A stretch of DNA of 64,000 bases from contig NZ_JACHBR010000001.1 of NCBI RefSeq assembly GCF_014200435.1, positions 2,604,001-2,668,000 of the forward strand, written 5' to 3'. Under the pieces are notes generated by a model. It saw only the letters and a list, made by a program, of their open reading frames with translations. It searched no databases and had not been told where the DNA came from. Both the position numbers and the translations under genes were made by a program. Source of the stretch: Sphaerisporangium krabiense. GTDB taxonomy: Bacteria; Actinomycetota; Actinomycetes; Streptosporangiales; Streptosporangiaceae. Of this stretch, positions 13,250 through 49,638 are shown in pieces (within the stretch, counting starts at the first letter, position 1; every line of letters starts with the position of its first letter).

Positions 13250-15025
13250 TCAGATCCAGGCGTCGCGCCACAGCACCGTGACCGGCGGGGCGCCGCCCTC
13301 CTGGGTGGCGTACTCGATGGTGGTGGCGCCGCGGCCCAGCACCCACGAACCGACCGCCAGGGACGCGCCGGTGAGGTACCGGACCTTGGAGCTGCCGCCG
13401 ATGGTCGCGGTGTTGTGCTCAGGGTCGATGATCAGCGTCTCGCCCGCGGCCACTTCGAGGTCGAACTCGATGACGCGCAGGATGGACCGGCCGTCGCCGA
13501 GGATCTGCTCGGAGGTCAGCGACGGCCCGTGCGCGGGCCCGGGCACGCGCACCAGCGGCCGGGTCTTCCGGTTGCCGGCGTTGAACACGTCGACAGCCGA
13601 GCCGTCGGGGATGGTCGCCGAGTGCAGGGCCCGCGAGTACAGCCGCGGATCCGACAGCTCCCACTGGACCACCGCCTCCACCCGGCCGAGGCGGAACCTC
13701 TTGTCGATGGGGGCGGCTCGGCGGATCACTGCGCCCCGGCCGACGTAGATGGTGTCCATGATACGGATCGCGAGCGGCAGTTCCTCGTCGGCCTCGGCGG
13801 CGGGCAGGCCGTTGAGGAAGTCCAGCGCTGCCTGTTCGATCTGGTCGCGCGGGGCCCGGATGCGGGTGGTCAGTGTGATGATCCGGGACTGGGGGAGCTT
13901 CTGGCCGGAGATGGATCCGTCGGCGGTCGGATGGGGCACGTTGCCGTTGTCGAGGGCGGGCAGGTCGACGGACGCCCCGTCGAGCTGGATGAACGGGTAA
14001 CGGGTGCCGGATCCCAGCTTGAAGCCGTTGAAGCTGAGCTGTCCCGGTCCGTCGAGGTCGTCGCCCGCGTTGACGGGCACGGACACCGCGGGCGCGGGCA
14101 TCGACCAGGGGGCGGCGATGAGGGGGGCGGCCACCGTGGCGTTCTTGAACGCCTGCACCGAGGGCGAGGGCATCGACCAGGGCGCGGACAGTAGCCCCGC
14201 CTCGACCGGGGTGACCGGGTCGCCGGTGAACACCTCGGGGGCGAGCATGGCCCACGGCGCCGCGATGACGCTCGGATGCTCGGTGACGCCTGTGGCCACG
14301 CCTGGGGCCGGCATCGACCAGGGGGCCGCGATGGTGCCCGGTGTCGCCTCCGCCGGGACCGACAGGGGGGTGAGGCGGCGGGGGCGTCCCTGCCGCCAGG
14401 GGATCGGCGGTCCGTCCTCGGTGGCCGCGCCGGACCCGCCGGACAGCGTGCGCCCGGCGCCGGAGTAGTCGACGGTCTCCGCGCGGGTGAGCGGGTACCA
14501 GGCGGCGAGGTTCGCCGTGCGCCGGGGCAGGTACGACCACGCTTCGGCCTCCAGCTCGGCCTGCGACAGCGCGGCACCGGACCAGAGCTTGACCGCGGCG
14601 AGGGCTCCGTTGAGCCAGTCGGAGCCGAAGCGGTTGCCCAGGTACAGGTTCGTGAGGGTCAGACCGGCGTTGCCGCCCGTCCAGGTGGAGACGGTGAAGC
14701 TGCTGTCGCCGGCGGCGCGAGACAGGACGGTGCCGCTGGTGCCGTTGACGAGAACGGCCCAGTAGTACCAGGTGCCGGCGGTGAGCGCGCGCGTCCCGGT
14801 CTCCTGCTCGGCCTCGTAGTCGAGGACGGCGGCGGTCGTGCCGTCAGAGTCTGTTTCCAGCGTGAACGCGTCGAAGACGGAGTTGCTGCCGAGCGACCAG
14901 ATGGTGGATGTGACGTTGCGGTCGACGCTGATCTTCGCCCAGCAGGCGAGGGCCCACTGGGTTTGGACGCCGAGGGAGAGGGCCCGGGTATACGCCTGCC
15001 CGTCGGCTGAGAACCTGACCGCCAC
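13250..15025 (-). CDS. Distal tail-like protein fused to a LamG-type domain
   Basis: The 591-residue protein starts at GTG 15025 after AAGGGGG. Residues about 5-190 look like a LamG/concanavalin-type lectin fold (ALACWAKISVD, AGTWYYWAVLVNGT, LYLGNRFGSDWLNGALAAVK). The middle has four spaced copies of APWSMPAP-like sequence. Residues about 330-591 resemble a phage distal tail protein, with GPGQLSFNGFKLG, RFRLGRVEAVVQWELSDPR and a beta-sandwich end. The gene follows three small structural genes and precedes the tail tip hub. A sugar-binding role for the LamG part is inference. Confidence 0.75.
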   Translation of the reverse strand: MAVRFSADGQAYTRALSLGVQTQWALACWAKISVDRNVTSTIWSLGSNSVFDAFTLETDSDGTTAAVLDYEAEQETGTRALTAGTWYYWAVLVNGTSGTVLSRAAGDSSFTVSTWTGGNAGLTLTNLYLGNRFGSDWLNGALAAVKLWSGAALSQAELEAEAWSYLPRRTANLAAWYPLTRAETVDYSGAGRTLSGGSGAATEDGPPIPWRQGRPRRLTPLSVPAEATPGTIAAPWSMPAPGVATGVTEHPSVIAAPWAMLAPEVFTGDPVTPVEAGLLSAPWSMPSPSVQAFKNATVAAPLIAAPWSMPAPAVSVPVNAGDDLDGPGQLSFNGFKLGSGTRYPFIQLDGASVDLPALDNGNVPHPTADGSISGQKLPQSRIITLTTRIRAPRDQIEQAALDFLNGLPAAEADEELPLAIRIMDTIYVGRGAVIRRAAPIDKRFRLGRVEAVVQWELSDPRLYSRALHSATIPDGSAVDVFNAGNRKTRPLVRVPGPAHGPSLTSEQILGDGRSILRVIEFDLEVAAGETLIIDPEHNTATIGGSSKVRYLTGASLAVGSWVLGRGATTIEYATQEGGAPPVTVLWRDAWI

Positions 15026-28217: not shown

Positions 28218-30614
28218 CTACCTGTAGTCGCCCCACGGGTTCGGCTGCCATCCCTCGGGCCGCTGGTAGTCGTCGGGGACGATCTCCAGCTCGATGTACC
28301 AGTCGAGGAGCCGCTTGTAGGCCGCGTGGACGATGAAGCGGGTGTTCCGCCGTAGCAGGATCTCCCGCTCGTCATCACCGTATACCGACAGCGGCATCAT
28401 GTTCAGGCCCTCGTGCCCCTTGGGGGCACGGATGACCAGGTGCAGGTTGCCGTGGAAGCCGGCGCGGCGTCCGACGGCCGTGGACAGGTAGCTCTTCTCG
28501 CTGATGACCCGGCCGATGAGCGACTTGACGCTGGCGGGGTCGTTGAGGTCGATGCCGAGCCAGTCGAACCACGGCTTGCCGACGTCGCGGTGCAGGATGA
28601 CGTCTTCGGGGAGCTTGGACTTGCTGATCGCGGAGTCGAGGTCCCGGATGACCTTGCTGATGTCGTCGTCGCGTTTGCGGGTTTCGTCGCGGAGGACGTT
28701 GTTGATGCGCTGGAAGCTGCTGCCGGAGTACCGTTCGGCGGCGGCGGCCTCGTCGTAGGTCAGCTTGGGGATGGGCAGCTTCTCGTGCGCCCAGCGGATG
28801 CCTTCGCCGTCGGTCTGGTGGCGGAGGGCTTCCTTCATGCCGGGCGTCTTGCGTGCCCCGGTCTGGCGGCGAGCGCGCTCGGCCGCTTCGGCTTTCGCCT
28901 TGGCGGCGGCCTCCCGCTCGGCCTTCTCCCGTGCGGCTCGGGCTTCGGCTTCGCGGCGCGCCTTCTCTGCGGCCTCCTCGGCCTGTCGGCGGGCCTTGTC
29001 TTCGGCCTCTTTGCGCGCACGCTCCTCGGCTTCGCGCTGAGCCTTCTCGGCGGCTTCCTTCGCTGCTTGCTGAGCCTTGTCAGCGGCTTCTTTGGCGGCA
29101 CGCTCTGCTGCCTCGCGGCGCGCCTTCTCCTCGGCTTCCTGGGCGGCACGTGCTGCGGCTTCCGCCTCGCGACGGGCCTGCTCTTCGGCTTCGCGCTGAG
29201 CTTTCTCGGCGGTTTCCTGGGCGGCGCGCTCCTCCGCTTCGCGTTGTGCGCGCTCGGCGGCCTCTTCTGCGTCCCGCCGTTCCTGCTCTTGGGCTTCGCG
29301 TTGCGCACGCTCAGCCGCCTCGCGCTCAGCCTGCTCTTCGGCCGCGCGCCGCCGGGCTTCCTCGTCCGAGCGAGGCGGCTCGGCCTCGGGCGCGGGGCGC
29401 GGGGCGCGGGAGCCGTCGTCGAGGGCGGGCTGCACGGGCGGCTGGAGGTCGCCGACGGGCCCGCCGGCCGGGCCGCCCTTCGGCGGGGTGTTCCCGGCTC
29501 CGGGCTGCTCGCGGTAACGGAGCCGCTTCAGGTCGGGGTGGGCAGCGAGGTGGTCGCGCAGCTCGGCCTGCCACTGGCGGACCTTGGCGTTCGCGGCCTT
29601 TTTGCCCTCGGGGGTGAGCGCGGTGTTGGCGCGCTCCTTGTGCTTGCGGATCTGCCGTTCGATCTCGCGCTGGCGCTGGCGGGCCTGGTCGCCTTGCGGG
29701 TCGGCGGTGTCCCGGAGCTGCTTGGTGAGGCCGGGCAAGTAGGCCGAGACGCTGTGCCGGCAGTTGGGGTGCTGAAACCCCTTGGCTCGCGCGCCGTCGA
29801 GGGTGTCGACGACGTCGACGGTGATCATCTCGCCGTCGCGGGTGGCGTGCTGGACCTGGACCTGCCCCGTGGGCCCGGAGATGGCGAGCACCTTGCCCTC
29901 GTAGGGGCGGCAGAGCTTGCACTCCTGGGAGTGGTCGGAGGCGATGACGAGGTTGACGCCGATGGAGGTGAGCCGGTCGGTCTGGCCCTGCACGGCAGCG
30001 CGGGCGGCGTTGGTGCGCGTGATCATCTCGGCGTAGCTGGAGAGCTTCCAGCGGCGGCCAGCCGAGTCGACGAACGAGGTGACCCCGCGGTCGACGAGCT
30101 TCTGCCATGCGGCCTGTGCGGCCTGCCGCCGGGTGAAGGCGCCGGAGACGATGCGCGCCGCGGCGGCGGCCTGCACCGAGCGGTAGGCGTCGAGGGTAGC
30201 CCGGAGGATGTTGCCTTCGACGCGGCCGAGATCGCGGTGCAGGGCGGCGGCGATGTTCTCGATGACGGGCGCGCCCGGGAACTCCTGCTGGGCTGCGCGC
30301 GCGGCCTGGCCGATGCCGGACCGCGGGAACCATCCCTCGGGGAGGTCGGTGAGCGCCGAGCCGTAGCCGTCGCGGTATGCCTGGCCGATGGCGTCGCGGA
30401 TGACGCGCGCGCGGGTGGCCTGGAGGGTGGAGATGAGGAGCTGGGCGGAGCGGCGCAGCGCGCCGACGGCGTCGAGCTTGGTGATCTGGTACGGGGAGTC
30501 GAGTTCGTCGTCGAGGCGGTCGGCGATCTGCTTGTTGAGCGCGGATTCGAGATCGCGGTAGAGGTCGGCGACGGTGGCGGCGATGTCGTCGAGGAGGTCC
30601 TGGTCGACGGCCAC
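28218..30614 (-). CDS. MuF-like head morphogenesis protein fused to an ADP-ribosyltransferase
   Basis: From GTG 30614, behind GAGGAGG, the product has 798 residues. Residues 1-310 are MuF-like, ending in ECKLCRPYEGKVLAISGPTG and HPNCRHSVSAYLPG. Residues about 425-605 are a TolA-like Ala/Glu/Arg coiled coil. Residues about 615-798 form an ADP-ribosyltransferase: catalytic arginine in VILHRDVG, STS-type motif in SEKSYLSTAVGR and ExE in DDEREILL. The R-STS-ExE pattern is that of arginine-modifying toxins. MuF proteins sit in the head, so the enzyme may be injected with DNA. The target is unknown. Confidence 0.88.
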   Translation of the reverse strand: MAVDQDLLDDIAATVADLYRDLESALNKQIADRLDDELDSPYQITKLDAVGALRRSAQLLISTLQATRARVIRDAIGQAYRDGYGSALTDLPEGWFPRSGIGQAARAAQQEFPGAPVIENIAAALHRDLGRVEGNILRATLDAYRSVQAAAAARIVSGAFTRRQAAQAAWQKLVDRGVTSFVDSAGRRWKLSSYAEMITRTNAARAAVQGQTDRLTSIGVNLVIASDHSQECKLCRPYEGKVLAISGPTGQVQVQHATRDGEMITVDVVDTLDGARAKGFQHPNCRHSVSAYLPGLTKQLRDTADPQGDQARQRQREIERQIRKHKERANTALTPEGKKAANAKVRQWQAELRDHLAAHPDLKRLRYREQPGAGNTPPKGGPAGGPVGDLQPPVQPALDDGSRAPRPAPEAEPPRSDEEARRRAAEEQAEREAAERAQREAQEQERRDAEEAAERAQREAEERAAQETAEKAQREAEEQARREAEAAARAAQEAEEKARREAAERAAKEAADKAQQAAKEAAEKAQREAEERARKEAEDKARRQAEEAAEKARREAEARAAREKAEREAAAKAKAEAAERARRQTGARKTPGMKEALRHQTDGEGIRWAHEKLPIPKLTYDEAAAAERYSGSSFQRINNVLRDETRKRDDDISKVIRDLDSAISKSKLPEDVILHRDVGKPWFDWLGIDLNDPASVKSLIGRVISEKSYLSTAVGRRAGFHGNLHLVIRAPKGHEGLNMMPLSVYGDDEREILLRRNTRFIVHAAYKRLLDWYIELEIVPDDYQRPEGWQPNPWGDYR

Positions 30615-30629
30615 GAGGACCTCCTCGGG

Positions 30630-30662
30630 CAACTCCCAGAACTGGGAGATGCTGGGAGTTAC
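30630..30662. repeat. Direct and inverted repeats at the portal-MuF junction
   Basis: Three closely spaced copies of CTCCCAG on the minus strand are followed by CTGGGAG, so a hairpin can form around the portal stop and the MuF ribosome site. It may tune translation of the MuF gene. Confidence 0.5.
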
Positions 30663-32564: not shown

Positions 32565-33857
32565 TCAGGCAGCGAGCGAGAGCGCCGGCCGCACCAGCGG
32601 ACGCCACAGCCACGCCGAGGAGTGCAGGGCGTACCGCAGGGCGTCGCAGGAGTGGTCGTCGACCTTCAGGGGCTTGTCCTCACCCTTCTCGGCGGCCTTG
32701 TCGTCCCACGAGTACCCGGGCAGCTCGGCGAGGAGGCCCTCGCATGAGTGGTGGATGCGGAGCTGGTCGGCGCCGAGGAGGGTGGAGACGGTGCGGATGC
32801 CGTCGATGACGCTGTTGTTGGCAGCCGAGACGCTGGGCACCTTGTCCGACCAGAGCTGCGTCATGAACGAGGCGGCCGAGGGGTCGACGTAGATGCGCTC
32901 GGGCTGGATGCCGCGGGTCTTGCCCTGTTCCCGCGGGCGCTCGACGAGGGCGAGCCATGCGCGCAGCTCGCGCGAGTATTCGCCGTCGGTCAACTGCCGG
33001 CGGGCGGTGCGCGAGTCGTGCCGGTACTCGGCGACGACGTGCAGGCGGCGGTCTTCGCCGAGGCCGACGGCGAGCGCGGCGAAGGGGTTGACGGTGCCGT
33101 AGTCGATGCCGAGGGAGAACCATCGGTCGATAGCGGGCAGGTCGTCTGTGACGTGGTGCTGGTCGTCGAACATCTCGTAGATGGCGCCCTCGGCGAGGCA
33201 CCAGGCGCCTTCGATGAAGCGGCGGTACCAGAGGCCCACGTACTGGGCCTTGAGCCGGGCGATGTACGACGGTTCGAGACTTGGGTTGTCGTCGAGGCTG
33301 AAGTGCCAGTGCCGCATGCCGATCTCGGCGGCGCGGGCGATGAAGTCCCGCTTCAACCAGTGCCCGGGGCCGTCGGGGTTGGTGGTGGCCAGCATCTTGG
33401 CGCCGGGGACGCGCAGGCGGGACAGGAGCATCATCCAGAACGACTGTGGCAGCAGCGTGGCCTCGTCGACGTAGGCGAGGCCGATGGTGGCCCCGCGGAT
33501 GCGTCCTTCGGCGCGGGCGTCGGCGGCGCCGATGAGGTGCACGGTGCGGCCGAGGATGACGGCGGTCGTCGACCCGGTGGTGTGGTGGATCTGGCCGGCG
33601 AGCATGCCGAACAGGTGGCTGCTCTGCAACGGGTCGATGATGTTGCGCTCGATGGTCTGGAGGGTGCGGCCGACGATGACGACGAGGCCGTGGTCGGGCG
33701 CGGCGAGAAGCGCGATCAGGAAGGCCAGCAGCGAGGCGATCGTCTTGCCCGAGGAGACCGCGCCGGACCACAGGGCGATCTGTGGTGTGGTCTGCGCGCC
33801 GACCACGGAGCGGATCTGCTTGGGCGACAGGACTCGGGTAACGGCGTCAAGAAGCAT
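32565..33857 (-). CDS. Terminase large subunit
   Basis: The 430-residue protein has the packaging ATPase Walker A in SGAVSSGKTIA and Walker B in IGLAYVDEATLL, with the coupling motif ATTNPDGPGHW. The C-terminal RNase H-like nuclease has its acidic residues in LGIDYGTVNPF, IYVDPSAASF and KVDDHSCDALRYAL. The length is normal for the PBSX/SPP1 group. It overlaps the small subunit gene by 11 bp. It cuts and translocates concatemeric DNA into the head. Confidence 0.95.
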   Translation of the reverse strand: MLLDAVTRVLSPKQIRSVVGAQTTPQIALWSGAVSSGKTIASLLAFLIALLAAPDHGLVVIVGRTLQTIERNIIDPLQSSHLFGMLAGQIHHTTGSTTAVILGRTVHLIGAADARAEGRIRGATIGLAYVDEATLLPQSFWMMLLSRLRVPGAKMLATTNPDGPGHWLKRDFIARAAEIGMRHWHFSLDDNPSLEPSYIARLKAQYVGLWYRRFIEGAWCLAEGAIYEMFDDQHHVTDDLPAIDRWFSLGIDYGTVNPFAALAVGLGEDRRLHVVAEYRHDSRTARRQLTDGEYSRELRAWLALVERPREQGKTRGIQPERIYVDPSAASFMTQLWSDKVPSVSAANNSVIDGIRTVSTLLGADQLRIHHSCEGLLAELPGYSWDDKAAEKGEDKPLKVDDHSCDALRYALHSSAWLWRPLVRPALSLAA

Positions 33858-34365
33858 CGGCGGGCGGTGGTTCGTCGAGGGCGTTGGCGGCGACGTCGAG
33901 GGCGGCGGCGAGGGCGCCGAGCATGCTGCGTGCCTGCGCGGCCCCGTTGTCGGTGTCGAGCTTGACGAGCTGGGCGTGCTTGTCGACGGCGATGCCGAGC
34001 GAGGTGTAGGCGGCCTGGACGTCGCGTAGCGGCGGGAGAGCGAGGTCGACGACCTCGGCGCCGTCGCGCCCGTTGGTCACGACCTGGTAGGCGGACCAGG
34101 CGCGCTCACGCAGCCGCTGGACGTCGTCGAGGAGCTGCTCGGACAGCTCGGCGCGGCGCGCCCTCATATCGGCGACGCGCGCCCGCGTGGCGCTTTCGGT
34201 CTGCGCGCGCGAGAAGGCGTCGCGAATGCCGTTGTCGCTGGCGATCTTTCGGACGGTGGCGTCGCTCACGCCGTGCTGGCGGGCGATGCCGCGACAGGAT
34301 TTCCCGCCGGCGCGGATGGTCTCCAGGATGGCGGCGCGGAGCACGGGGTCGAGGGGCGGGGGCAC
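33847..34365 (-). CDS. Terminase small subunit
   Basis: The 172-residue protein opens with a helix-turn-helix: AILETIRAGGKSCRGIARQH and GVSDATVRKIASDNG, the DNA-recognition part of small terminases. Long helices for oligomerisation follow (RARVADMRARRAELSEQLLD) and a conserved-looking YTSLGIAVDKHAQLVKLD, which is frequent in actinophage small subunits. It starts at GTG 34365, seven bases after a tiny upstream gene. The packaging site is expected close by, but no cos or pac sequence is evident. Confidence 0.88.
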   Translation of the reverse strand: MPPPLDPVLRAAILETIRAGGKSCRGIARQHGVSDATVRKIASDNGIRDAFSRAQTESATRARVADMRARRAELSEQLLDDVQRLRERAWSAYQVVTNGRDGAEVVDLALPPLRDVQAAYTSLGIAVDKHAQLVKLDTDNGAAQARSMLGALAAALDVAANALDEPPPADAS

Positions 34366-35388: not shown

Positions 35389-35740
35389 CAAATCCCCCTG
35401 GCGATTTATCGGGTACCTCGGTGGGTGGTGCGGCCGGAATAGGAGCCCCGCATTTGTGGGCCACTAATACGGGATATCTGCGTTTGGCTCGGATATTCCA
35501 TTCGTAGCGGTATTCGAGTTCTTTTCTTCTGCTGTCGCCGACGAGGTCGTATGTCGCGCGGCCCTGGGCGATGGCGATCACCTCGCCCATTTCGTCGACG
35601 GGCGCCAGATCGACGACGGCGTTCATGGCGGCGCGGTCGGCATCCAGGCCGGCGAGCACCGTGGCTCCGCAGGCGCACTGCCGGGCGCCGGCGGTGCGGA
35701 GGTTGCCGCCGCCCTTGGCGAGGAGCCAGGCGGGGATCAC
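35366..35740 (-). CDS. Small zinc-ribbon-like phage protein
   Basis: From GTG 35740, overlapping the primase-helicase stop by 4 bp, the product has 124 residues. It carries CACGATVLAGLDADRAAMNA near its start and VAHKCGAPIP later, so two CxC/C pairs can make a zinc ribbon. It ends in an acidic DDDRCPF tail. Coupling to the primase suggests a replication accessory role, such as a primase zinc module acting in trans, but that is inference. Confidence 0.68.
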   Translation of the reverse strand: MIPAWLLAKGGGNLRTAGARQCACGATVLAGLDADRAAMNAVVDLAPVDEMGEVIAIAQGRATYDLVGDSRRKELEYRYEWNIRAKRRYPVLVAHKCGAPIPAAPPTEVPDKSPGGFDDDRCPF

Positions 35741-38283
35741 AGGGCGTCCTCGGGGTCGAGAAGGAGCCCGGTGGCGGGGTTGACTCGCGCGCCGTCGACG
35801 AGGATCCAGTCGGGCACCGGGGCGATCAGGTCTGAGGGGTCTCTCGGGTCGGTGTCGGAGGCGGAGTGTGCGCCAGTGCGCCACCCCCCTTTAGGGGGGC
35901 GCACTGGCGCACTCCCGCCGATGGGGGGTGGCGCACTCGTGGCGAGGTGGCGCACTGAGCCTGTGACCTGCGGTTTGAGTGCGCCACCCCCCTGGCGCAC
36001 TGGTGGCGCACTGGACTCGGGTTCGTGATCTTCGCCGGAAGAGGGTGGCGCACTGAAAGTGCTGGTCACAGAGTCAGTGCGCCGATGATCTGTAAGGAGT
36101 GGCGCACTCGACGGTCCTGACACCGCCCAGTGCAGGGTGCTCCCGCGCGCCCCATCGGCTGCCCGCAGCAGTCCCAGGGAGACCCCTCTCTTGATCGCCT
36201 TGCGGACCTCGTTGCGGCCGAGGTCCTCGCCGAGGGCGTCCTCGATCTGCCGCTTGGAGGAGCCCGGAGACAGCGTCAGCCACTCGCTGATCGCGTCGAT
36301 GACGACGTCGCTCTTGGCGTCCTTGCGCGAGCCTCCGGCGATCTCCAGGCACCGCGCGGCCGGGTCGAAACTGAGCAGGGATTCGGGCACATCGACGTCG
36401 CGTCCATAGGCGGAGAAGAAACGCTTCGCCGAGGGATCCATTTCCCCGTCGTCGCTTTTCTCGCGCACGAGCCGCCATTCCACGTCCGGCCAGTCGCGCA
36501 GGCGCGACGCACCCCGGGACCGCTCGCCCTGGTGCCCCATGTGGTGCACGAGAACGGCCTCTTGGACTCCCGCCTCTTTCAGCATTTCGTCGAATGCGAC
36601 GAGGAATCGCCCGGCCTCTTTGTCCTCGGAAAGGCCGAGGGCGTCGAGAATGGGCGCGAGGCAGTCGAGGATGACGACGGTGGCGCCCGCGGCGCGCAGG
36701 TCCGCGGCCCACTCCGATCGCGTCTGCGGGTCGAGCAGGTCGAAGCTCGACAGCCGGCCGCGCAAGGAGACGACGGCCGCCGCCGCGGTGTTCTGGACGC
36801 GCTGGTCGCGCAGCCACCGGCGCACCATGCCCTCATCCAGCTCGTCGTCGAGGAGGACGACCTTCCCGGCGAACGGCTCGACGTCGAACTTGCCGAGGAA
36901 CGGGGTGGAGTCGACGAGCGAGCGCAGCAGGTTGCCGACCATGGTGGTCTTGCCGGCCTTGAACTGCGCGGCCAGCACGACCCGGCCACCCTTCGGCCAC
37001 AGGCCCTGCACGCGGTAGGCGACGGGCTCGTCAGGCACGGCGAGGAAGTCGTCCAGGCCGACGATGGGCGGTCGGGTGGCGACGCCCCCGCGGGCCTTAC
37101 GGGCGCGCCGGGCCGCCTCCTCGCGGATGCGGATCCGGCGCAGCTCGGCGGCGACCTCGCGCTCGAACGCCAGGGCCTCCAGGTCGATCGCTTCGGCATC
37201 TCCCGAAGTGATGTCGCCCTCGTCGTCGACCTGGCTTTTTGCCACCTCCGGCAAGAAGGTGTCACCGGCGAAAGGGGGCGGCTCCGCGGTACGGTTCTCG
37301 CTCGGCGCGATCAGCCCCGCCAGGGCGTCGCCGGGCGCGAGCCGGGTGTCCACGTCGGCGCGCACCGCGGCGAGGTCGGCGGCGCGCACCTGGGCGACCG
37401 CCCAGGCGAGGATGCCCATGAACTCCCCGCGCGCCTGAACCCGGGTGAGCGTGCGCTCGCTGCCGTCACGGCTGGTGGCCATGGCCCGGGTGAACGCCTC
37501 CAGCAACGCCGTGGCGGCCTCCAGCGCCGGGTACAGGCCGGCGGCGGCCTCGCGCATCGCCCCCGCGGTGGCGCGCAGCGCGATCCCGTGCCGAGACTCG
37601 CCGGTCGCCAGCGCGGTGGCGACCTGCGTCAGCACGCCGTGCAGCAGCTCGGGGCGCTCGCGCGCGGTGTGCCGGTCGAGGAACGCCTTGACCTCGCCGT
37701 CGGTGGCCGCGTCCGCCGAGTCGCCGGCGTCGGGCAACTCGGCCGCGACGGGCTGCGGGAGCAGGGGCAGCGAGCCGGTGCGCACCCAGTGATACCGGCC
37801 GCCCTGCTCGTGCTTCTCGTGCGTCGAGGGCGCGACGACGACGATGCCGTTCTTCCCGCGCACCTCGCCCCAGCCCTTCCCGAGGCCGCCGAGGCGGTTG
37901 CCGAGGACGCGGCCGGGCGGGGCGAGGTAGAAGTAGTGCCCGCGCCGCTCGTCGGTCGTCCTGGTGGACTGGAACGGGCCGGGGACGACGCCGAGCGCGG
38001 CCACCATGAGCGAGGGCAGCGCCTCGGGCCGGTCGACGTCGAAGACGATCGCGCCGGACCGGCCGACGTGCAGGGCGAGCGCGTCGTCGGTGCCCGCGAA
38101 CCAGGCGATGATCCGCTCGGCGTCGCGCGAGCTCTTCGACGGCCAGCCCTTGCCGAGGACGCTCCCGGCGTGCTTGGTGGCCTGGTCGACGGGGAGCACG
38201 TACCAGCCGGCGCGCGCGTAGGCGAGCGCGGCGCCGAGGGTGTCGGAGTCGTCGTCGACCTCGGGGATGTGCAGGTCGGTCAC
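35737..38283 (-). CDS. Bifunctional primase-polymerase/helicase (Prim-Pol plus RepA-like ATPase)
   Basis: The 848-residue protein begins with a Prim-Pol domain: ALAYARAGWYVLPVDQATKH, the catalytic acidic pair in AIVFDVDRPEALP and GHYFYLAPPGRVLG. The RecA-like ATPase follows at about residues 420-640, with Walker A VLAAQFKAGKTTMVGNLLRS, Walker B VVILDCLAPIL and VLVHHMGHQGERSRGASRLR. A winged-helix segment (SKRQIEDALGEDLGRNEVRK) and a low-complexity tail end it. It likely initiates and primes phage replication. The tail-coding DNA holds a repeat array. Confidence 0.92.
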   Translation of the reverse strand: MTDLHIPEVDDDSDTLGAALAYARAGWYVLPVDQATKHAGSVLGKGWPSKSSRDAERIIAWFAGTDDALALHVGRSGAIVFDVDRPEALPSLMVAALGVVPGPFQSTRTTDERRGHYFYLAPPGRVLGNRLGGLGKGWGEVRGKNGIVVVAPSTHEKHEQGGRYHWVRTGSLPLLPQPVAAELPDAGDSADAATDGEVKAFLDRHTARERPELLHGVLTQVATALATGESRHGIALRATAGAMREAAAGLYPALEAATALLEAFTRAMATSRDGSERTLTRVQARGEFMGILAWAVAQVRAADLAAVRADVDTRLAPGDALAGLIAPSENRTAEPPPFAGDTFLPEVAKSQVDDEGDITSGDAEAIDLEALAFEREVAAELRRIRIREEAARRARKARGGVATRPPIVGLDDFLAVPDEPVAYRVQGLWPKGGRVVLAAQFKAGKTTMVGNLLRSLVDSTPFLGKFDVEPFAGKVVLLDDELDEGMVRRWLRDQRVQNTAAAAVVSLRGRLSSFDLLDPQTRSEWAADLRAAGATVVILDCLAPILDALGLSEDKEAGRFLVAFDEMLKEAGVQEAVLVHHMGHQGERSRGASRLRDWPDVEWRLVREKSDDGEMDPSAKRFFSAYGRDVDVPESLLSFDPAARCLEIAGGSRKDAKSDVVIDAISEWLTLSPGSSKRQIEDALGEDLGRNEVRKAIKRGVSLGLLRAADGARGSTLHWAVSGPSSAPLLTDHRRTDSVTSTFSAPPSSGEDHEPESSAPPVRQGGGALKPQVTGSVRHLATSAPPPIGGSAPVRPPKGGWRTGAHSASDTDPRDPSDLIAPVPDWILVDGARVNPATGLLLDPEDAL
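35865..36108. repeat. Iteron-like array of about 12 copies of GTGGCGCACT
   Basis: Within 244 bp, GTGGCGCACT or its reverse complement AGTGCGCCAC occurs about 12 times with few mismatches: near 35865, 35875, 35897, 35905, 35928, 35947, 35978, 35993, 36003, 36045, 36076 and 36099. Both orientations are present. The array is inside the 3' part of the primase-helicase gene, where the protein is low-complexity. It is a candidate replication origin. Confidence 0.85.
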
Positions 38284-49562: not shown

Positions 49563-49600
49563 GCGGCCGTAGCTCAATGGATAGAGCATCTGACTACGGA
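49563..49600 (+). repeat. attR core
   Basis: Identical over 38 bp to 8720-8757. It makes up the first half of the intact tRNA-Arg gene. Confidence 0.92.
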
Positions 49601-49638
49601 TCAGAAGGTTAGGGGTTCGAGTCCTCTCGGCCGCGCCA
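49563..49638 (+). tRNA. tRNA-Arg (anticodon ACG)
   Basis: A full cloverleaf can be drawn. The acceptor GCGGCCG pairs with CGGCCGC, the anticodon stem TCTGA pairs with TCAGA around loop CTACGGA (anticodon ACG), and the T arm is AGGGG-TTCGAGT-CCTCT. Discriminator G and an encoded CCA end it. The A34 would be converted to inosine to read CGU, CGC and CGA. Its 5' half and upstream DNA come from the prophage, while its 3' half belongs to the older island or host. It is the only intact copy here. Confidence 0.97.

Follow-up and report, generated by a model that had tools for sequence, protein, structure and literature searches.

We found that an array of 8-bp repeats in the 3′ part of a Prim-Pol/helicase gene is very probably the replication origin of an actinobacterial prophage, with the enclosing gene coding for its initiator. 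Replication itself is something we infer from sequence; the array, its place, the link between the repeat and a winged-helix domain, a dyad with an AT core and the exchange of the whole block in a relative were computed directly. A first-pass annotation of the window (the whole stretch of DNA analyzed, 64 kb) had proposed a candidate phage origin here, with about twelve repeats in both directions, and this reading gains credibility from the arrays found in relatives and from the winged-helix link. The repeats are located as follows:

35867..36108, both strands: repeat array, 12 copies of AGTGCGCC, 8 bp each, within 242 bp
35867 (one mismatch), 35875, 35978, 36076: starts of the plus-strand copies
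35898, 35906, 35930, 35949, 35994, 36005, 36047, 36101: starts of the minus-strand copies

Eleven copies are exact and one has a single mismatch; eight lie in the sense of the gene and four are inverted, and they fall in several reading frames. A longer unit, GTGGCGCACT, has seven exact and three one-mismatch sites in 35875-36108, and the core common to all copies is AGTGCGCC/GGCGCACT. The array described earlier is therefore real, but its repeat unit had to be shortened, since four of the 11 exact core copies lack the full GTGGCGCACT (three have one mismatch, and the fourth is 36076-36083) and the invariant unit is the 8-mer. No other 8-mer cluster in the 64 kb is as dense: this one packs 11 copies into 234 bp, against five in a 260-bp span for the best 8-mer unrelated to it. 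The array holds seven of the 26 exact occurrences of AGTGCGCCAC in the 8.5-Mb host genome. In 50 dinucleotide shuffles of the 1150-bp stretch around the array, no 8-mer exceeded four copies. The 11 copies observed also surpass what codons 721-813 yield under synonymous codon draws (mean 0.45, maximum 3; n = 2000) or under permutation of codons within the segment (mean 2.1, maximum 7; n = 2000). The clustering of short repeats thus exceeds chance, a property of iteron-type origins. What counts against an origin is the cumulative GC skew, which, computed across the mapped prophage (9234-49423), does not change direction at the array.

The limits of the prophage come from IMG/VR record 2844862658_000001, which the window matches identically over 10.5 kb and whose span of 40,190 bp corresponds by arithmetic to about 9234-49423. 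Terminase, portal and minor capsid genes of the prophage lie at 33857-28218. The gene that encloses the array has the following parts, all on the minus strand:

35737..38283, minus: Prim-Pol/RecA-fold helicase/winged-helix gene of the putative initiator, enclosing the array (ORF, 848 aa; PHROG DNA polymerase/primase)
37753..38229, minus: Prim-Pol domain, residues 19-177 (Pfam Prim-Pol, E 6.2e-25)
36526..37053, minus: RecA/KaiC-fold helicase domain, residues 411-586 (Pfam AAA_25, E 3.9e-24; Foldseek KaiC/RecA)
36124..36327, minus: winged-helix domain, residues 653-720 (structure model; recognition helix 690-702, wing 706-720)
36214..36216, minus: codon of Arg690, the first residue of the recognition helix, which covaries with repeat position 7
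35815..36114, minus: linker spanning the array, residues 724-823 (predicted disordered, pLDDT mostly 27-40)
35740..35814, minus: small C-terminal tail after the array, residues 824-848 (hairpin, pLDDT 57-73)

The Pfam Prim-Pol and AAA_25 domains bear out the identity first given to the gene, and the former (PF09250) gives the product the domain typical of AEP/Prim-Pol proteins. A structure model of the full 848-aa protein has a mean pLDDT of 64 and a pTM of 0.45, with a RecA-fold core (residues 405-652) mostly of high pLDDT. When modeled in isolation, the winged helix has a mean pLDDT of 87.6, and its Foldseek matches, to the winged helices of Zur, MarR and linker histones, are weak (best E 2.7e-3; TM up to 0.77 among the matches listed); Pfam searches with the winged helix and six C-terminal stretches gave no match above the cut-off. 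The array corresponds to residues about 726-806, within the disordered stretch of the model. If the array is the origin, it overlaps the end of the gene because translation continues across it, as an unstructured linker that leads to the small tail. The earlier view that DNA constraint dominates this low-complexity part agrees with both the excess over the synonymous nulls and the predicted disorder.

Relatives of the helicase plus winged helix were gathered from genomes, viral contigs and named records. The array detector scanned both strands for any 8-mer, in a stretch reaching from 250 bp ahead of the match end to 900 bp past it, and compared the result with 50 shuffles; 94 loci were set up and one (L123) was too short, leaving 93. 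An array at the 3′ end of the helicase gene exceeded all 50 shuffles in 57 of the 93 loci, and at least five copies were present in 45 of the 93 versus 0 of 92 upstream controls (stretches up to the same length); none of 100 upstream stretches exceeded its own shuffles. Kept outside the 93 were the window's own record (L049), a group of 12 (L051, L052, L059, L074, L079, L080, L082, L083, L086, L092, L105 and L106), seven distant loci (L017-L020 and L022-L024, after a first look in which the cluster was absent or weak), 13 weak loci (L134-L146) and seven others (L112-L118). With the same detector, arrays over shuffles were present in seven of ten in the group of 12 (two were too short), in none of the seven distant relatives, in eight of L134-L146 and in four of L112-L118, that is, in 19 of 37 loci first left out. 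Adding eight further loci to the 93 gives 63 of 101, and adding the left-out loci gives 82 of 138, near-copies included. The 36 of 93 loci without an array over shuffles count against the origin reading, as do the seven distant relatives; two of the 36 (L028 and L058) have weaker visible arrays despite failing the detector, as does L151.

The first-pass annotation had pointed to relatives as the place to check the array, and many of them keep an array at the same position with a different repeat. The sequence varies from phage to phage (AGTGCGCC, AGTGCGTC, AGTGCCCC, AGTGTGCC, ACTGTTTC, GGGGTACC and others). The layout of an array inside the gene holds for the window, but among 49 loci with arrays the center falls inside the reading frame in 14 and after the stop codon in 35. 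On a quick tree of these 49 loci the inside/after state requires at fewest six changes; therefore, enclosure was gained or lost more than once. The small tail of enclosed forms varies: it is a hairpin in the window and in L011, L147 and L054, and, judged by eye, of the CxxC type in L050, L026 and L053. The host probably belongs to the Streptosporangiaceae, as a genome of that family has the same sequence as the Herbidospora locus L026 over the 500 bp compared.

Similarity between repeats tracks the C-terminal winged helix more closely than it does the helicase. In partial Mantel tests on 55 loci (nine near-copies removed, with L149 judged by array likeness alone; 1326 of 1485 pairs used), it correlated with winged-helix identity given the helicase (r = 0.33, reached in 0 of 2000 permutations) and far less with helicase identity given the winged helix (r = 0.08, 188 of 2000). 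This is the domain, near residues 660-720, singled out earlier for binding assays. The window array thus also has the iteron-type feature of a putative cognate initiator encoded next to it, whose candidate DNA-binding domain, a predicted winged helix, covaries with the repeat.

Within the winged helix, residue 690 agrees with repeat position 7 (AGT being positions 1-3): all 13 rows with Arg or Lys have C, and all eight with Gln have T (21 of 21). Arg facing G and Gln facing A are a commonplace contact pattern. On the helicase-core tree both residue 690 and position 7 change six times, and five of five independent pairs are concordant (sign test, 0.0625). In this 21-row set, L034, L060 and L068 have no plain AGT in this sense and their register was set by eye; L011, L033, L047, L058 and L063-L066 are outside it. 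An AGT-anchored set of 20 rows, with L155 and L174 and without L171, agrees in 20 of 20, with six changes and only three pairs on starred (well-supported) branches (sign test, 0.25). The rule emerged from inspection of the data and is therefore post hoc; it suggests that one amino acid of the putative initiator follows one DNA letter of its repeats. Both L171 and L174 (Arg) have C7, and with the register chosen by eye C7 also occurs in L033, L183, L189 and L167 (Arg or Lys) and T7 in L011 (Gln). Listed against the origin reading are the Phe690 loci L063, L065 and L066, with T7, and the Glu690 locus L190, with G7. L058 (Arg) has five AGTNNGC versus two AGTNNGT, and no array was found in the Gln690 loci L043, L163, L168 and L169, the last two of which end at the contig end; these Gln690 loci also weigh against that reading. 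A second covarying position, a Phe in helix 2 with T5 (L032, L036, L034 and L058; by eye), was dropped because L031 has T5 without the Phe. In L171, a metagenomic phage contig, there is an in-frame stop inside the helicase upstream of 1501, which could mark a pseudogene, an error or recoding.

At one end of the window array the repeats are arranged symmetrically:

35867..35913, both strands: dyad, in which an AT core is flanked on either side by a tandem pair of repeats (8-bp steps), the two pairs being inverted
35884..35899, minus and plus: AT-core palindrome CCCCCCTTTAGGGGGG between the inverted repeats, one of two such in the 64 kb

In 560 bp that span the end of the helicase and the sequence beyond it, we searched for perfect palindromes with a core CT(A/T)1-5AG and at least three further pairs. 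They were present in 32 of 89 loci (four near-copies removed), with about 1.0 expected from shuffles, and in none of 88 upstream, 89 mid-gene and 79 further downstream controls; a relaxed search gave 31 of 92, against 1 of 91 upstream, 0 of 92 mid-gene and 0 of 82 downstream. Seven of the 32 (L077, L081, L089, L090, L094, L099 and L101) share one near-identical palindrome. The four-repeat dyad has the same offsets from the core (-20, -12, +11 and +19) in the window, L027, L050 and L147, the last with a different repeat from that of the window and two mismatches in the outer pair, and nearly the same offsets in L026 and, with an unrelated repeat, in L154. The exact dyad occurs in four of 16 loci (taken from the 18 of the relaxed-palindrome set); the others have one repeat on each side or another spacing, which weighs against the reading as an origin. 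As for an AT-rich melting site, the window array has only the short CTTTAG core within GC-rich arms. The palindrome was rejected as a terminator, as by eye no T-run follows it in the gene sense. The seven loci that share a palindrome are all viral contigs; each contains a pair of AT-core palindromes, which include GCCACCCTATATAAGGGTGGC, and the TAAGGTAA-like repeats that follow the helicase are too few for the detector. A stretch of about 50% GC at 35450-35550, bordered by stretches of 62-74%, could be an additional melting region; it belongs to the next candidate gene and is some 320-420 bp away from the array.

In a mosaic relative (L011), the helicase, the winged helix and the array are replaced as one block:

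35842..37221: exchanged block, comprising helicase, winged helix and array; the block in its place in L011 has no DNA similarity to it

L011 and the window are 93% identical in the DNA of the Prim-Pol part and 84% in the tail, while the intervening block of L011 has no blastn similarity to the window and a different repeat, CCGTGTCC. The two sequences become homologous again about 25 bp from the array of the window and about 20 bp from that of L011.

A plasmid search returned one record with a close relative, pDJL3 of Rhodococcus qingshengii (L155), a 15,865-bp circular element that carries terminase, tape-measure and integrase genes; searches with other subfamilies gave only pDJL3 or distant RepA-type helicases. 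The pDJL3 helicase has Gln at 690 and no array at the end of its gene. About 670 bp beyond it, at 13434-13586, AGTGCGT(T/C) repeats surround an AT-rich center; this stretch, flanked by a short gene and the integrase, has no gene listed in a table that is itself incomplete. Gln690 thus goes with T7, as expected, on a naturally circular element. The gap of 13385-13972 also holds a second repeat set, CTGCGGAC/ACTGCGGA, at 13715-13972, and a tRNA-end-like sequence near the integrase gene, in which ARAGORN found no tRNA.

Acting as an origin, the array could work as follows. The C-terminal winged helix would bind each AGTGCGCC, with Arg690 reading the G opposite C7, and several protein subunits would assemble on the array. 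The dyad, with its two repeats per side facing each other across CTTTAG, is where two helicase rings could be placed head to head and loaded in opposite directions as the AT core opens, after which the N-terminal Prim-Pol would prime both strands. The same sites may, besides replication, serve in autoregulation. On the wider proposal we are evenly divided: that these are widespread actinobacterial prophage replicons with primase, helicase, origin-binding domain and origin in one gene, evolving by block exchange, with origin identity switched by the pairings Arg/Lys690-C7 and Gln690-T7, a common CTWWAG dyad that loads the helicases, and an in-frame enclosure that arose several times.

The array might instead be an operator, through which the protein or a phage repressor regulates downstream transcription while replication starts elsewhere. 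We consider this unlikely: the winged helix does resemble the Zur and MarR repressors and candidate genes follow below the array on the same strand, but the array comes after the helicase gene and covaries with the winged helix of that very helicase, a single repressor would hardly require 12 copies and an AT-core dyad, and in pDJL3 the array is flanked by a short gene and the integrase. A centromere-like partition or incompatibility site, distinct from the site of initiation, seems very improbable. Iterons can serve in copy control too, but the covarying domain is here fused to a primase and a helicase, and an AT core with inverted flanks fits initiation.

Equally improbable is a packaging site (pac/cos) read by a small terminase, an idea that draws on two genes 1.5-3.3 kb away:

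32565-33857: large terminase gene (Pfam E 1.6e-13)
33847-34365: helix-turn-helix gene, possible small terminase

Against it, the repeat sequence tracks the winged helix of the helicase, and in prophiFSIL01-1 (L009), where several genes are hypothetical, the annotation shows no terminase within 2.8 kb below or 4 kb above the array. The repeats could also be the by-product of a repetitive, low-complexity protein tail, since the translation across the array is rich in Ala, Pro, Ser and Gly. However, the copies lie in several frames and on both strands; this explanation, to which we give a negligible probability, is taken as refuted because of the two codon-level nulls (at most 3 or 7 copies) and the arrays that are centered beyond the stop codon in 35 of 49 relatives. 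An origin remains our preferred reading of the array.

Direct repeats within the initiator's own gene act as the origin in lambda O, and the initiators lambda O, TP901-1 ORF13 and Tuc2009 Rep2009 are not known to be primases or helicases. For the latter two, repeats inside the gene are likewise described as the origin (PMC8965321), a feature shared with the window. In SaPI/PICI elements the origin lies directly 3′ of the initiator-helicase gene, with short iterons in two sets around an AT-rich stretch and a Rep whose C-terminal domain recognizes the origin, according to PMC6092414 and PMC7581432. The present loci resemble this layout in outline, despite the statement in PMC6092414 that the SaPI Rep-ori organization is unique among known bacterial entities. 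In contrast, the window array is enclosed in the gene and its AT stretch is a short, palindromic CTTTAG core; SaPI/PICI helicases are described as DUF927/Cch-type or D5-type (PMC7581432), whereas that of the window is a RecA/KaiC-fold AAA_25 fused to a Prim-Pol, encoded by a prophage with its own terminase, portal and minor capsid genes and not by a satellite island.

SCCmec Cch2 and CCPol-MP are similar in that the C-terminal domain of the helicase (predicted in our case) binds repeats, just downstream of its own gene, and works with a primase partner, but Cch2 is a D5-type helicase with three iterons outside the gene, as presented in PMC7581432. ORF904 of pRN1 is a single protein that comprises a Prim-Pol, a helicase and a C-terminal winged helix, and the origin follows its gene on the 3′ side, so that domain set and origin position are shared with the window; its helicase is SF3, and its origin is described in PMC4234260 as a 100-nt stem-loop without iterons, whereas the window has neither an SF3 helicase nor a large stem-loop but a repeat array. 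Since the helicase family differs, we do not file the window as a member of either SaPI or pRN1. The Streptomyces plasmid pWTY27 has a tested, bidirectional repAB-iteron origin of 8-bp direct and inverted repeats by the gene of a predicted primase/polymerase (RepB), similar to the window but with the array in a non-coding stretch, according to PMC3583192. In AICEs, Prim-Pol genes adjoin replication proteins given as unknown in PMC3218068; other primase families are among those surveyed in PMC5862659.

An initiator-helicase gene with an origin at its 3′ end is, therefore, an established arrangement; the compact initiator-plus-origin unit first proposed is supported in the window, but its 3′ position has precedents. 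In the literature covered, mostly outside subscription journals, we found no description of the class, the position-690 rule or the AT-core dyad, which is for that reason weak evidence of novelty. The loci offer a natural series of matched initiator/origin pairs, with repeats differing by single bases, in which to test how new origin specificities arise, and they let one guess where the origin lies in an unannotated actinobacterial prophage with only the helicase gene to go by. They also suggest that the SaPI-like layout is not confined to satellites.

Other features of the prophage include a tRNA-Arg (acg) gene at 49563-49638, just outside its mapped end, which is a likely attachment site. 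The minus-strand gene at 28221-30632 codes for a fusion protein: residues 12-362 form a phage minor capsid protein 2 domain (Pfam E 3.7e-63) and residues 623-770 an ADP-ribosyltransferase exoenzyme domain (E 2.1e-23), and an 81-bp tandem repeat at 28945-29140 encodes the Ala/Glu/Arg-rich linker between the two.
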